Of a stretch of DNA of 64,000 nucleotides, positions 29,508 through 35,068 are shown in pieces. Origin of the DNA: Euzebya rosea. GTDB lineage: Bacteria > Actinomycetota > Nitriliruptoria > Euzebyales > Euzebyaceae. The stretch covers positions 1 to 64,000 of the forward strand of contig NZ_PGDQ01000012.1 in the NCBI RefSeq assembly GCF_003073135.1, in the 5' to 3' direction. Numbering within the stretch: the first letter of the stretch is position 1; every line of letters begins with the position of its first letter. The notes beneath the pieces are model-generated. The model was not told the DNA's origin. It ran no database searches and saw nothing but the letters and a program-made list of their open reading frames with translations. The position numbers and the translations under genes were made by a program.

Positions 29508-29957
29508 GGCCACGGTGACCGTCCGGCCGCCCCAGCCGTTGGCGAGGTCACGGCCCTCCACGGTGATCTCCTCGACGCCGTCGGGGATGACCAAGCCGGT
29601 CAGGGACCGCGTGAACGGCTGCTCGTTGGCATGGTCGTGGGTCAGCACGCGCACACCGAGCTCGGACCCGTCGGGCGCCAGCGCACGGAAGGCGTCGGCG
29701 TACCGCTCGGGTGAGTCGTACGGCGAGGAGATCGTCGCCGACAGCGTCCACGCCTCCCCGGACCGTGCCAGCTCGGCGTCGATGACGTCCGGGAACGACT
29801 GCTGCACCGTCGCGTCCTCCACGGTCGGGCTGGCCGCGCCGGCGCCGTCGGTCGACGCCGTGTCCTCGGCGCAGCCAACCATGGCAGCCAGCAGGGCCAA
29901 TGCGACGATCATCCCTCCGGCACCGCGCCGCACCGGCCGGCCCACGGTGGTCAACAC
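29496..29957 (-). CDS. Small lipoprotein with beta-sandwich-like domain
   Basis: The 153-residue product starts at GTG 29957, which overlaps the stop of the upstream glycoside-hydrolase-like gene (GTGTTGA). The signal GMIVALALLAAMVGC has a clear lipobox (MVGC). After a Ser/Thr/Ala linker the domain (about 45-153) reads as beta strands (EAWTLSATISSPYDSPERYA, GSELGVRVLTHDHANEQPF), reminiscent of the Gmad2/IPT immunoglobulin-like fold seen in other exported lipoproteins. Coupled translation suggests it works with the CWB2 lipoprotein before it, for example as a surface cofactor; that is inference. Confidence 0.75.
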   Translation of the reverse strand: MLTTVGRPVRRGAGGMIVALALLAAMVGCAEDTASTDGAGAASPTVEDATVQQSFPDVIDAELARSGEAWTLSATISSPYDSPERYADAFRALAPDGSELGVRVLTHDHANEQPFTRSLTGLVIPDGVEEITVEGRDLANGWGGRTVTVAVPG

Positions 29958-32341
29958 CCCAGGACGCCGGCGATCGCCCGCTCGTGCGAGGCGGAGATCG
30001 CGGCGGCCCCACCAACCAGTCGAACCTGCGAGCGACACGTCCCCAGCGATCCGAGCGCCGACGCGGTTGACGACGGGACGGCGCCGGCCAGCCCCTCGGT
30101 CAGCAGGACGACACCGTCGTCGCGAACGGCGGCTGCCGCGGCGGACAGCGCGTCGGGGAAGTCACGGCCGGTCGCGATCCACACCGATGCCGGCTGGCCC
30201 GTCCGGGCGACGGCTTCCTCCGCCGCCAGCCGGGAGGTGTCGTAGCGGCCATCGCCCCCGAGGCGGGTCACGGTGGCGCCCTGCGCCCGCAGGTCGTCCA
30301 GCACCTGCTCGTCGACGACCGCCTGCCCACCGACCACCAGCACCTCGGCCTGCCCGATCACCGCTCCGGTCCCCGCCGACACCGTGCGGCCGTCGGTCAG
30401 CAGCAGCGGCGCCTCGAGTGCGCCGGCCAGGGCCGCCCCGGACAGCCCGTCGGGGAAGGCGAAGCCCGATGCGAGGACCACGATCGACGGGTTCCCGCCG
30501 GTCCGCTGGGCGGCCGCCACAGCCGTGGCGATGCGGTCCTCGCCGCTCACCCGCTCGACGTCGAGCCCCCGCTGGCGCAGGGCCCGCACCACCGCCTCGT
30601 CGATGGCCGCCGGGCCGCCCAGCACGATCACCCGTCCGGCCCCCAGCCGGTCGATCTCGTCCAGCGTCACCTGCGGGACCGCCGACCGGTCGGTCAGCAG
30701 CAGGGCGGCGTCCTCGGCGATCGCCAGGGGCGCGCTCACCAGCGCGTCGGGAAACGTCGCCGCGCTGGCGAGGACCACCGCCCCCGCACCGTCGAGCACG
30801 CGCTGGGACACCGCGACGGCAGTGGCGATCCGCTCGCTGCCCTCGATCCTCGACAGCTCCTCGGCCCCGCCGTCGCCACCTGCCTCGACCAGCAGGACCC
30901 AGTCGTCGTCACCACCGGCGTTGCTTCCCGGCGGTGCCACGCGGACCCCGGTGGCGGTCAGCTCGGGGGCGGCGTCAACGGTGGTGCCGTCGACGGGGTC
31001 GTACCACCGCACGGTCGCCCCTGACGGGTCCTGCCGGAGGTCCAGCGCGATGGACCGCAAGGTGGGCAGGTACACCACGGACACGCTGCGGTCGGCGGTG
31101 GCCGCTGCCACGGCGAAGTCCTCCTGGCCGTAGTTGCCGGATCCCTCCACGACCAGCGATGCGTCGAGGTCGGGTTCGAGCACCGTCCACGGCAGGCGTT
31201 CGAAGAGGGTGCGGACGTGGACCTGGTCCCGTGCGCCGGGCGCGTCCAGGGCGTCCCGCCAGACGGACACGAACTGCCAGATGGCAGAGTGGCCGTAGAC
31301 CTGCCCGGCGGCGCCGCTCAGCAGCGACCCGTAGGACTGGGCCCGGAGCTCCTGCCGGGTGACGTCGCGCTCCTCCTCGTAGGCGGTCTCGAACAGGAAG
31401 TGCGGGATGTCGATCTCGTCGGTGTGGTCGTCCCGCGACTTCACGTAGGCGGGGTCGTAGGTGTAGGTGGCGTCGATGTCGAGCGCGAGGTCGAGGCCGA
31501 GGTCGGTGGCGCTGTCCCCGGGCGTGCCGTGGGCGGTGCGGAGCTGGGACGCCCCAGCGGCTGCCAGCCCACGCTCGACGGCCTCGACCAGCCGGAGGCC
31601 CTCGGGCGGCGGGGAGTAGTCGCCGGCGTGCAACCACACGACGTTGTCGGCGTCGGCGAACTTCTGTCCGACGTAACGACCGTAGTCCTCCATGACCTGT
31701 TCGCCGGCCGCCAGCATGTCCTGGTACCAGCCCTCCGTGCCCCCGTCGAACCCGAGGTAGGCGGGCGCGAGCAGGACCATGAACCCCTCGTCGGCGGCCT
31801 GCCGCACCTGATCGACCGCCGCATCGAAGTAGGCGTCGTTGGGGGCGGAGAAGTCACCGGGCGAGGCGAACGGGTCGTTGCCCGCTTCGTCACGTGGCGG
31901 GTCATCGGCGAACTCGTGCTCGATCAGGTTGACGACGAGGGTGTTGAACCCCTGCTCGCGCCTGGTGGTGAGGTAGTCGGCGGTCTCCTGGGCGTCGAGC
32001 TGCAGGACGAGTGACCAGGCCGCGTCGCCATGGATGAGGAAGGGGTCGCCGTCGGCGTCGACCAGGTGACGGTTCGTCGCGTCGACCGCGAGGGGGAAGG
32101 TGGGTCGTGTCAGCTGGGCCGCGTCGGCGATGCCCTGCCCGTCCGTCGCCTCGTCGAACGCCGGGCCGGTGGTTGCGGGGGCGTCCTCGGTCGACGGATC
32201 GTCGGGGCCGACAGCCGGGGTGGCTGTTCGTTCCGCGCTGGACGAACCGACAGGGGACGATACGTCCGCCTCGCCGGCGCAGGCGGCCAGGACGAGGGCG
32301 AGGGACAGCAGGATCAGGACGAAACGACGGTGCGGTGCCAC
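29951..32341 (-). CDS. DUF4038/apiosidase-like glycoside hydrolase lipoprotein with three CWB2 repeats
   Basis: The 796-residue lipoprotein (lipobox LAAC, Cys21) has an acidic linker and then a TIM-barrel domain of the DUF4038 type (about 85-400): HLVDADGDPFLIHGDAAWSL, then EQGFNTLVVNLIEHEF and NVVWLHAGDYSP. This family contains GH140-like apiosidases. A small beta domain (about 410-495, YLPTLRSIALDL) of the kind that follows DUF4038 comes next, then three CWB2 repeats (about 503-796, e.g. VIVLGGPAAIDEAV). I infer a cell-wall-attached enzyme acting on a plant or algal polysaccharide, or on the cell's own wall sugars. It is doubly attached, by lipid and by CWB2. A small lipoprotein gene is coupled downstream. 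Confidence 0.82.
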   Translation of the reverse strand: MAPHRRFVLILLSLALVLAACAGEADVSSPVGSSSAERTATPAVGPDDPSTEDAPATTGPAFDEATDGQGIADAAQLTRPTFPLAVDATNRHLVDADGDPFLIHGDAAWSLVLQLDAQETADYLTTRREQGFNTLVVNLIEHEFADDPPRDEAGNDPFASPGDFSAPNDAYFDAAVDQVRQAADEGFMVLLAPAYLGFDGGTEGWYQDMLAAGEQVMEDYGRYVGQKFADADNVVWLHAGDYSPPPEGLRLVEAVERGLAAAGASQLRTAHGTPGDSATDLGLDLALDIDATYTYDPAYVKSRDDHTDEIDIPHFLFETAYEEERDVTRQELRAQSYGSLLSGAAGQVYGHSAIWQFVSVWRDALDAPGARDQVHVRTLFERLPWTVLEPDLDASLVVEGSGNYGQEDFAVAAATADRSVSVVYLPTLRSIALDLRQDPSGATVRWYDPVDGTTVDAAPELTATGVRVAPPGSNAGGDDDWVLLVEAGGDGGAEELSRIEGSERIATAVAVSQRVLDGAGAVVLASAATFPDALVSAPLAIAEDAALLLTDRSAVPQVTLDEIDRLGAGRVIVLGGPAAIDEAVVRALRQRGLDVERVSGEDRIATAVAAAQRTGGNPSIVVLASGFAFPDGLSGAALAGALEAPLLLTDGRTVSAGTGAVIGQAEVLVVGGQAVVDEQVLDDLRAQGATVTRLGGDGRYDTSRLAAEEAVARTGQPASVWIATGRDFPDALSAAAAAVRDDGVVLLTEGLAGAVPSSTASALGSLGTCRSQVRLVGGAAAISASHERAIAGVLGC

Positions 32342-32390: not shown

Positions 32391-32909
32391 TCACATGGTC
32401 ACCCGGGAAAGGATCTCCTCGAAGGCCGCGTCGGCCAGCGCGACGAGCTCCGCGTCGGTGCGGTCCTGGATCGGGTGGGGCACGAACACGCGAGCGGCGT
32501 CGAACCCGAGCGCGTCGGCCTGGGTGTCGGCAGCTTGGACGAACTCCGTCGAGGCGACCATCACGCCCACGAGACCTCGTCGTTCGAGGTCGGCGATGTC
32601 ATGCACACTGCACGACGTGCAGGAGCCTCAGTCGGCCAGCGCCTCGATGACGACGTAGCACTGCTCGGCGATCTCCTGCCGCAGGTCAACGGGGGCGGGC
32701 TTGGCGAACGTCGGCTTGCGGTACCGCTCGACCGCCACCCCACGATCCCGCAGCCGCTCCTCGATGCGGTCGAGGAACACGTCGCCACGCGCCTTGGAGA
32801 TGTCGAGCAACCCGACCACCTTCCCGTCGAGGCTCGCCGGGCGAGGGTTGCGCGACCGCACCGCCGGGGTGCGCTCGTCGGTCGGGTCGAGCACCCACCT
32901 GGTCGTCAC
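32391..32909 (-). CDS. UGSC-family selenoprotein with in-frame TGA read as selenocysteine
   Basis: The frame from GTG 32909 runs 93 codons to TGA (32628-32630) and continues in the same frame for 78 more to the true stop at 32391. Across the TGA it reads ALAD-U-GSCTSCSVHDIADLE, the hallmark of the UGSC (seleno)protein family (also found with Cys as CGSC). Both sides are needed for a complete protein of 172 residues: VVGLLDISKARGDVFLDRI before, and ERRGLVGVMVASTEFVQAA after. Sec94 and Cys97 would form a UxxC redox pair, with Cys100 close by. A bacterial SECIS hairpin starts 11 bases after the TGA (apical loop 19 bases after). GTG overlaps the stop of the thioredoxin-domain gene (GTGA), so the two are co-translated. 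An ordinary gene finder would split this gene. The sel genes needed are not in the window. Confidence 0.85.
32598..32616 (-). promoter_or_regulatory. Bacterial SECIS element
   Basis: In the mRNA, GUCGUGCA-GUG-UGCAUGAC forms an eight-pair stem (one G-U) with a GUG loop. The loop begins 19 bases after the UGA codon and has G first and U second. This agrees with the known bacterial SECIS model: spacing about 16-37 bases, short apical loop, G in the first two loop positions. It would bind SelB for Sec insertion. Confidence 0.8.
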
Positions 32910-34351
32910 GCCTGCACCTCCACGGTCGTCGGGTCGCTACCGGCCTCGCCGCTGACCCATCCGCCGATGATGCCAGAGAACATCCCAGCGGCGCCGCCGG
33001 CATGGACGATCAGCAGGCCACCGGGCCGGAACTTGGGGATGTCCATGTCCGCGACCTGCTCGGGCAGCCCCTCGTCGATCCCGCCGGCGCCGCGGACCAT
33101 CTCCTTGCCCGGGATGGTCAGCAGCGTCGCCAGCTCGGCGTGGAGCCGTTCGCGGTCCCAGCCGGCGTCGGCGAAGACCCGGGCGTGTTCGGGGGCGACG
33201 ACCAGCATCGCGTCGAACGCCATGGCCAGCTTGGGGTGGGCGACGCTGCGCAGGCTGGCGGCCATCGATGCGGCCAGCGACTCGGGGCGTCGGCTGATCT
33301 GGTCGATCATGCCGTGCACCCCGCACCCGGCGAACACCGTCACGGTGGTCGCGTCGGCGGAGAAGCCGCGCTCGACGGCGAGGGAGGTCCAGGGCGAACC
33401 GTCCTCGTCCTCGGCGAAGCAGAACGTGTACTTGCCGGGCTGGCCGAGGGTGGCCCGGTCGACCCCGCCGGGGCGCCCGCCGCCGAGGTTGCGCACGATC
33501 AGGTTCAGCGCCCGGCCGATGGTGGCGTTGGCGCGGTTGCCCTGGCCGAGGGCGTTGATGCCGCTGTTCATGCCGATCCGTCGGGCGCCGGGTCCGTTGA
33601 CCACCACGACCGGTCCGGCGAAGTAGGTGGTCGCCAGCAGGCCGTGCATGTTGAAGGAGTCCGAGCAGGCCGCCTGGACGGCGGCGATGACGACGGGGAG
33701 GTACTCCGGCCGGCAGCCGGCCATGACGGCGTTGACCGCGACCTTCTCCACGGTTGCCTCGGCCAGGTTCGGCGGGACGACGGCGACGACCTCGTCGGGC
33801 GCACGGGTGGTGCCGGTCAGCATCGCGGCGACCCGTTCGGGGGTGGGCGGGACGACGGGCAGCCCGTCGGTCCAGCCACGGTCGTACATCGCCTCGATGT
33901 CGTCATCGGCCGACGCGAGCTCCACCCGGCGGCTGGCCAGCCCGTCACCGGCGAAGCGTGCCCGCAGCCGGTCGGCGACGTCGGGGTCGGCCGACAGCGA
34001 GCCGCAGCCGGGCCGGAAGTCCGGCAGGTCCGGCCCCAGCCCGGACAGACGGGTGAACGCCTCCCACTCGTCGCGATCCCACCCGACGATCCGGTCGACC
34101 ACCTCACCGTCGGCGACCCTGAGCACCGTCGGCACCACCTCGATGTCGTGGTGCCACGACAGCGACAGGTCCTCGTCGTGGAGGGGGTCGACGGTCGCCG
34201 GCCACGCGGGGTCGTCCTGGGTGACGACGGTCACGAGGCCGGTGGACCACAGCCGTTCCAGGACGGGGACCACCAGCACGCAGGTCGGGCAGTCGCGCTT
34301 GACCACGACGACCAGGCCCTCGGGCAGGTCCGGCACGGTCGGTGAAGCCAT
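32906..34351 (-). CDS. Thioredoxin-like domain fused to a UGSC-associated domain
   Basis: The 481-residue cytoplasmic protein has an N-terminal thioredoxin-fold domain (about 8-100) with the redox motif CPTC in VVVKRDCPTCVLVVPV and a cis-Pro-like VVPTVLRV. After the linker FRPGCGSLSADP comes a long conserved domain (about 145-481): YDRGWTDGLPVVPPTPERV, ATVEKVAVNAVMAGCRPEYL, NGPGARRIGMNSG and GHAGGAAG-like glycine turns near the end (IVHAGGAAGMFSG). I recall this large domain as a frequent neighbour of UGSC-family proteins; its chemistry is not known to me. It is translationally coupled to the UGSC selenoprotein gene, so a thiol/selenol relay between the two is likely. ATG 34351 faces a divergent gene 135 bases away. 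Confidence 0.78.
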   Translation of the reverse strand: MASPTVPDLPEGLVVVVKRDCPTCVLVVPVLERLWSTGLVTVVTQDDPAWPATVDPLHDEDLSLSWHHDIEVVPTVLRVADGEVVDRIVGWDRDEWEAFTRLSGLGPDLPDFRPGCGSLSADPDVADRLRARFAGDGLASRRVELASADDDIEAMYDRGWTDGLPVVPPTPERVAAMLTGTTRAPDEVVAVVPPNLAEATVEKVAVNAVMAGCRPEYLPVVIAAVQAACSDSFNMHGLLATTYFAGPVVVVNGPGARRIGMNSGINALGQGNRANATIGRALNLIVRNLGGGRPGGVDRATLGQPGKYTFCFAEDEDGSPWTSLAVERGFSADATTVTVFAGCGVHGMIDQISRRPESLAASMAASLRSVAHPKLAMAFDAMLVVAPEHARVFADAGWDRERLHAELATLLTIPGKEMVRGAGGIDEGLPEQVADMDIPKFRPGGLLIVHAGGAAGMFSGIIGGWVSGEAGSDPTTVEVQA

Positions 34352-34486
34352 CGACGATGACGCTACACCGCAGGCGCCGTCCCGGTCCTCGCCGGGGGAG
34401 CTGTGGACAAACGGGCATCGACCCGCCCGTCGCTGTCGCACCCCCGGAGCACGGTGAGCCCCATCGCACCGACAAGGGAGGATCCC

Positions 34487-35068
34487 ATGGACCAGCACGA
34501 CATCTCCGACTTCATCGACCGGCTCGACGACCCCAGCGGGTTCGAGGCGGGGGCAACCAGGACCGCGACCGCCATGCCCGCCCTCATCCAGCATCGCCGG
34601 GCGGGCAGGGTCGACGACTGGCTCGCGCTGGCGGCCGACGCACTGCGGGCCTGCCTCCGTGATGGCTGGCAACCGCCCTCGGCCCACGCGCTGCTGCAGA
34701 CGCCCGACGCCGTCCGGACGATCGAGGCCGAGCCGTGCTGCGAGACCAGCTGGTTCATGGCCGAGCTGAACCGTACGGCCGCGACGCTCCCCGACGTCTG
34801 GGTGGCGCTGGCGGTCCCCGACAGCGAGCCACACGGCATCCCGGTCGGGTACTGGAACCCGGCCAACCGCGGCCCGGTCGACATCGACCACGTGCGGTTC
34901 TACGCCGAGGTGCGGGGGCGCGGGCTCGGCCTGCCGCGGGGCGTCAGCATCCGGACCGCTCGGCTGGCGCTCGACGACGGGCCGGTCGACCTGACACCCA
35001 CCGACGACGCGAGCCTGCGGCGGCTGGGCCGGCGCATCCTGCATCGCCACCCGATCCGGCGACGGTGA
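34487..35068 (+). CDS. Hypothetical protein
   Basis: The 193-residue soluble protein starts at ATG 34487 after a strong GGGAGGA site. The N-terminal half is helical (DISDFIDRLDDPSGFEAG, DWLALAADALRACL). A helix with AEPCCETSWFMAELNR and the strand VWVALAVPDSEPHGIPVGYW follow. The basic C-terminus is RILHRHPIRRR. I recognise no family. It is divergent from the thioredoxin/UGSC operon and shares its 135-base control region. Confidence 0.6.
   Translation: MDQHDISDFIDRLDDPSGFEAGATRTATAMPALIQHRRAGRVDDWLALAADALRACLRDGWQPPSAHALLQTPDAVRTIEAEPCCETSWFMAELNRTAATLPDVWVALAVPDSEPHGIPVGYWNPANRGPVDIDHVRFYAEVRGRGLGLPRGVSIRTARLALDDGPVDLTPTDDASLRRLGRRILHRHPIRRR

Follow-up and report, generated by a model that had tools for sequence, protein, structure and literature searches.

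A UGSC-family selenoprotein gene of Euzebya rosea and its thioredoxin-fused partner: a possible two-protein reductive enzyme

The stretch of DNA analyzed here (the window) comprises 64,000 nucleotides of contig NZ_PGDQ01000012.1 from the genome of Euzebya rosea (5.5 Mb, 97.6% complete). Two adjoining genes on its minus strand encode a short UGSC-family protein with an internal TGA codon and a larger, thioredoxin-fused partner. The features of the locus are as follows.

32391..32909, minus strand: gene for a UGSC-family selenoprotein of 172 residues, starting with GTG at 32909-32907 and ending with TGA at 32393-32391
32628..32630, minus strand: in-frame TGA assigned to selenocysteine (Sec), U94 of U-G-S-C-x-x-C, from direct reading, translation and homologues
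32598..32616, minus strand: predicted bacterial SECIS hairpin, 8-pair stem and GUG loop, the loop 19 bases after the UGA
32906..34351, minus strand: partner gene, 481 amino acids, thioredoxin (Trx) domain plus uncharacterised core, with invariant C21, C24, C116 and C213
34049..34318, minus strand: the partner's thioredoxin-fold domain, which carries CPTC (C21, C24), from profile and structure matches
34004..34006, minus strand: codon of partner Cys116 (PGCGS), Cys in the window and TGA in 12 other genomes

The UGSC gene is followed immediately by one for a large secreted protein (29951-32341, minus strand), whose domains are apiosidase-like, putatively collagen-binding and cell-wall-binding (CWB2). 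On the other side, an open reading frame (ORF) without a Pfam match (34403-35068, plus strand) separates the partner from a cupin gene; it looks like an insertion, since only about 55 bases separate partner and cupin gene in a near relative (L142).

The UGSC gene and its selenocysteine codon

In the list of open reading frames the gene is split into two short ORFs of the minus strand (32909-32628 and 32606-32391), which the original prediction took for a single frame continuing across a TGA. Direct reading of the sequence bears this out: from the GTG at 32909, the TGA at 32630-32628 is the sole interruption before the TGA at 32391, and the 172-residue frame, with the internal TGA translated as U, places U94 in the context ...EALAD-U-GSC-TSC-SVHD. 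The joined protein matches NCBIfam NF041046 (147.5 bits, cut-off 125) and Pfam PF24696 (146.2 bits, cut-off 25) over its whole length, while the halves, each taken alone, match complementary parts of the NF041046 profile (positions 1-68 and 77-146); the original prediction regarded both as needed for the family pattern. Scores of the joined protein above the family cut-offs, together with the separate matches of its halves, amount to more than chance. The U/C-G-x-C motif and the following Asp are invariant in 29 diverse members (D93, U94, G95, C97, D104). Judged by its sequence, the gene that is apparently broken by a stop codon is one intact gene.

The internal UGA would be translated as selenocysteine by the genome's own SelA, SelB, SelD and tRNA-Sec, with the hairpin just downstream acting as SECIS. 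All four components, on whose presence the original prediction depended, were found: tRNA-Sec with anticodon UCA (C6:152701-152792, labelled tRNA-SeC by ARAGORN), SelB (C9:97090-98919), SelA (C9:102238-103533) and SelD (C2:75998-76924). A different codon is used in Candidatus Blastococcus massiliensis and Geodermatophilus obscurus, where the UGSC Sec site is TAG (loci L057 and L085, position 11665) and tRNA-Sec has the anticodon CUA. ARAGORN labels these CUA genes tRNA-Pyl, and the covariance model for tRNA-Sec scores them above its cut-off. UAG-encoded UGSC proteins of Geodermatophilaceae were reported earlier (PMC5330540); by comparison of the genes, Sec codon and predicted anticodon have changed together in these two members of the family.

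The predicted SECIS hairpin (GUCGUGCA-GUG-UGCAUGAC) has eight pairs, one of them G-U, and the 8-pair stem, GUG loop and 19-base spacing originally claimed for it are all present. Across 80 distinct homologous segments, 7.46 of the 8 pairs form on average, as against 4.85 (sd 0.15) when synonymous codons are drawn freely and 7.28 (maximum 7.375 in 1000 trials) when the real codons are redealt within columns. In addition, five of the eight pairs show two-sided changes among 22 rows chosen by hand for their diversity. These comparisons indicate that the putative SECIS hairpin is conserved beyond coding constraint, its stem covarying across the UGSC family. Folded alone, the window hairpin is no better than shuffled sequences (z -0.29), and the Rfam SECIS_1 model gave no match over the genome, being likewise silent in every control genome. 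Seven to eight stem pairs can also form in three of the four Cys-type UGSC homologues tested, at the SECIS position of genes on haloarchaeal plasmids (L048, L052, L053), where the pairing perhaps reflects codon bias or is a relic of a Sec-containing ancestor.

Our search of 61 related genomes, the source genome included, detected 25 UGSC genes above the family cut-off in 14 genomes. The partner gene is present in 105 of the 395 genomes of one actinobacterial class. With respect to the UGSC gene, these counts make the original description of such genes as rare in actinobacteria an overstatement. Among 80 partner-gene loci from Actinomycetota, Proteobacteria, Acidobacteria, Chloroflexi, Myxococcota and others, 71 contain a complete UGSC frame across TGA or TAG at the same site, and over all sampled loci the Sec-site codon is TGA in 97 cases and TAG in two.

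Were the TGA a true stop, the locus would hold a pseudogene or an error of sequencing, or would encode two small proteins independently, and it is the case that both ORFs have possible starts and stops and that the window hairpin, taken singly, folds like its shuffles. This reading is nevertheless very improbable. Each of the 25 related UGSC genes contains exactly one in-frame stop, which is always a TGA at this position and is read across, the outcome that the original prediction had counted on; loci of several phyla have the codon at the same position, and the alternative codon TAG is paired with a CUA tRNA-Sec. Comparison with a homologue (L033) revealed 17 synonymous and 6 nonsynonymous codon differences after the TGA (18 and 12 before it), which argues for purifying selection past that codon. 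Each half, moreover, fits its corresponding half of one curated family. On the conservation of TGA or TAG in homologues and the selection downstream of it, a pseudogene or a sequencing error in particular was rejected.

The window gene thus adds to a selenoprotein family that had been described by 2008, and the decoding claim is accordingly not new; earlier accounts present UGSC as a predicted selenoprotein of unknown function (PMC2398784, PMC13188914, PMC9312934), and the original remark that its role is undescribed agrees with the 2026 review (PMC13188914). A second UGSC gene in the source genome (C6:255307-255816; L025/L138) has an in-frame TGA within U-G-A-C and a partner without a thioredoxin domain, and lies near genes for an acyl-CoA ligase and for branched-chain ABC transport. 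On the conjugative plasmid p2-T1 of Acidovorax sp. T1, a UGSC gene with an in-frame TGA (L050:7923-8460) is entered in the annotation as a truncated hypothetical protein of 96 aa, an example of how annotation pipelines that stop at UGA split the UGSC gene.

The partner gene and its probable selenocysteine form

The gene immediately upstream, whose end overlaps the UGSC start by four bases (GTGA), was passed over in the original prediction and is the more informative part of the locus. It adjoins UGSC at all 25 UGSC loci in related genomes. In the 71 of 80 partner loci that have complete UGSC frames, the two genes mostly lie within 130 bases of each other, and 28 of these pairs overlap by 4 bases; in L036 they are fused into one ORF. 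Cys-type pairs occur at plasmid loci of haloarchaea and of Arthrobacter, where the gene order is trxB, trxA, partner, UGSC. Taken jointly, membership of the UGSC family, Sec decoding and pairing with the partner gene have, by the sequence evidence, a very high probability of being correct. Other arrangements were also observed. One related genome has three UGSC/partner pairs in a stretch of roughly 10 kb, one of them fused to a single ORF, with genes for dehydrogenases, hydrolases and CoA ligases around them (L139; G050:C21:1-20000), and UGSC is divergent from the partner, not downstream of it, at three loci labelled Acidobacteria or Holophagales (L079, L084, L090). Phage records gave no match.

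Against Pfam and NCBIfam the partner matches no family beyond weak thioredoxin hits. The Trx domain was predicted from profile matches to thioredoxins (best E 4.8e-4) and from structural comparison (Z up to 9.0). The remaining core is conserved as far as haloarchaea, at about 40% identity, and Foldseek returned no convincing fold match for it; the best one, a two-subunit fumarase (E 1.5e-3, TM 0.21), was set aside. We surveyed the neighbours of the Trx-fused subtype at 24 genome loci, where the commonest genes are housekeeping-like and no family recurs beyond a few loci. Pairs with a non-Trx partner are found among acid-CoA ligases, CoA transferases, lyases, hydrolases and transporters, a setting that hints at small-acid metabolism for these pairs.

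Alignment of 81 Trx-type partners showed Cys116 to be invariant except in three sequences, where its codon is TGA. Nine further partner genes with one stop were found among the 395 genomes (the class of G290); all nine belong to one family, and in every one the stop is TGA at the C116 position. For the resulting 12 genomes (L112, L117, L118, L146-L154), a hairpin at SECIS distance from the TGA forms 7.4 of 8 pairs, compared with 4.1 in 74 Cys homologues and 5.9 (maximum 6.67) under synonymous redraw; in the betaproteobacterium L117 only 5 pairs form in that register. tRNA-Sec and SelA are present in those of the genomes with a TGA-containing partner that were tested. The partner matches no NCBIfam or Pfam model and is not recognisable in the selenoprotein inventory of 2026 (PMC13188914). 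It therefore appears to be an unlisted selenoprotein in some bacteria, with C116 probably replaced by Sec, and adds a candidate family to current lists. Two non-Trx partners (G164, G351) were considered for a second Sec site and rejected: the partner homology found in them starts past UGSC and their stops were not placed at C116.

A possible thioredoxin-fed reductase and its alternatives

The structure predicted for UGSC (pLDDT 94) is a five-unit beta-alpha sandwich with flavodoxin-like matches, in which U94 sits where strand 3 gives way to helix 3. The top-scoring structure is a chain from the complex that activates methyl-coenzyme M reductase (Z 12.3), about one unit above a designed protein (Z 11.2), and no thioredoxin is among the matches listed. 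A search of the UGSC profile against PDB sequences gave nothing useful. In a profile comparison by hhalign, UGSC aligns with the GrdB-like Sec region (E 7.6e-5, probability 62%) through U-G-x-x-T-x-C...E-R-x-G-x-P, and a narrower alignment gives 9% and E 0.0036; Pfam PF07355 (GRDB) does not match UGSC up to E 1, and TIGR01917 scores 11.2 bits, below its cut-off of 602.2. UGSC may thus weakly resemble the Sec domain of glycine reductase GrdB, which carries UxxCxxC and belongs to a complex that draws reductant from thioredoxin (PMC13188914).

We tentatively propose, at well short of an even chance, that the UGSC/partner pair is a reductive enzyme whose mode of action resembles that of the Sec subunit in glycine or D-proline reductase. 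The flavodoxin-like UGSC, with U-x-x-C-x-x-C at a strand tip, would attack or reduce a substrate held together with the partner core. Electrons would pass from NADPH through thioredoxin reductase to the CPTC of the partner's Trx domain, then to Cys/Sec116 and to U94 with C97 and C100, and finally to the substrate, and this relay through the partner would regenerate the UGSC selenol. The relay is suggested by the flavodoxin-like model, the GrdB profile alignment, the UxxCxxC of GrdB and the feeding of glycine reductase by thioredoxin. What the genes themselves show is their structure, the signals for decoding, the pairing, the domain of Trx type and the exchange of Cys for Sec; from there we infer complex formation, the electron route, the class of substrate and the reaction.

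That the two proteins make up a redox system of a general kind (thiol-disulfide, peroxide or stress), with no substrate-specific reductive cleavage, is a serious contender, with a likelihood not far below even. Most prokaryotic UxxC selenoproteins are presumed to be redox enzymes (PMC13188914), no catabolic neighbourhood is conserved around the Trx-fused subtype, and thioredoxin and thioredoxin reductase genes adjoin the Arthrobacter pair. However, the fold predicted for UGSC appears flavodoxin-like and not that of a peroxiredoxin or a thioredoxin, the large and highly conserved partner core suggests a specific substrate or cofactor, and the non-Trx pairs stand among the enzyme and transporter genes named above. 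It is unlikely that the pair instead serves as a chaperone or in detoxification, dealing with metals or metalloids or transferring sulfur or selenium, with the Sec/Cys cluster as a ligand set. Metal binding is presumed for several selenoproteins whose Cys and Sec residues are clustered (PMC13188914), and the best structural match of UGSC comes from the methyl-coenzyme M reductase activation complex; yet that match barely exceeds the designed protein, no metal transport or resistance genes stand beside the fully annotated pairs, and a thioredoxin partner suggests redox turnover.

On the reading as a substrate-reducing enzyme, the pair could represent a novel two-protein, thioredoxin-fed reductase of the glycine-reductase type, distributed over many bacterial phyla and some archaea. 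Its partner would be the unlisted selenoprotein family, with C116 changed to Sec and a SECIS of its own in an Actinomycetota family (whose named members are Acidimicrobiia) and in a betaproteobacterium, and some systems would have Sec in both proteins; we regard this broader proposal as conceivable, with the same reserve as the reaction itself. The probable presence of selenium in the partner of some other bacteria points to a two-protein selenium enzyme. With a partner that is always at hand and has its own thioredoxin domain and a residue exchangeable between Cys and Sec, what had been a redox protein of undefined role becomes a two-component enzyme open to testing.

Comparison with known systems

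The window gene does not differ in kind from the known UGSC family (NF041046/PF24696): it matches the UGSC protein of the Global Ocean Sampling study over the full length and has the same U-G-S-C-x-x-C. As described so far, Sec in this family is encoded by UGA, or by UAG in Geodermatophilaceae (PMC2398784, PMC5330540). The 2008 description conjectured a Trx-like fold for UGSC, in contrast to the flavodoxin-like model obtained here. Its Figure S1A also depicts a fusion of UGSC to a domain termed Unknown_1 (PMC2398784), which, as a conserved domain fused to UGSC, is probably the partner core; the relevant passages in the main text of that paper mention neither a thioredoxin fusion nor constant adjacency nor a Sec form.

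With thioredoxin the partner has in common the fold and CxxC of residues about 12-101. It adds a 330-residue core of unknown family, however, and scores far below the thioredoxin equivalog cut-off. GrdB and PrdB (PF07355, TIGR01917) differ from UGSC in their large N-terminal GRDB domain, whereas the 172-residue UGSC is without it and falls below the family thresholds. The likeness to these reductases lies in the Sec motif UxxCxxC, in a weak local profile similarity over 77 columns and, as proposed for UGSC, in thioredoxin as the electron source.
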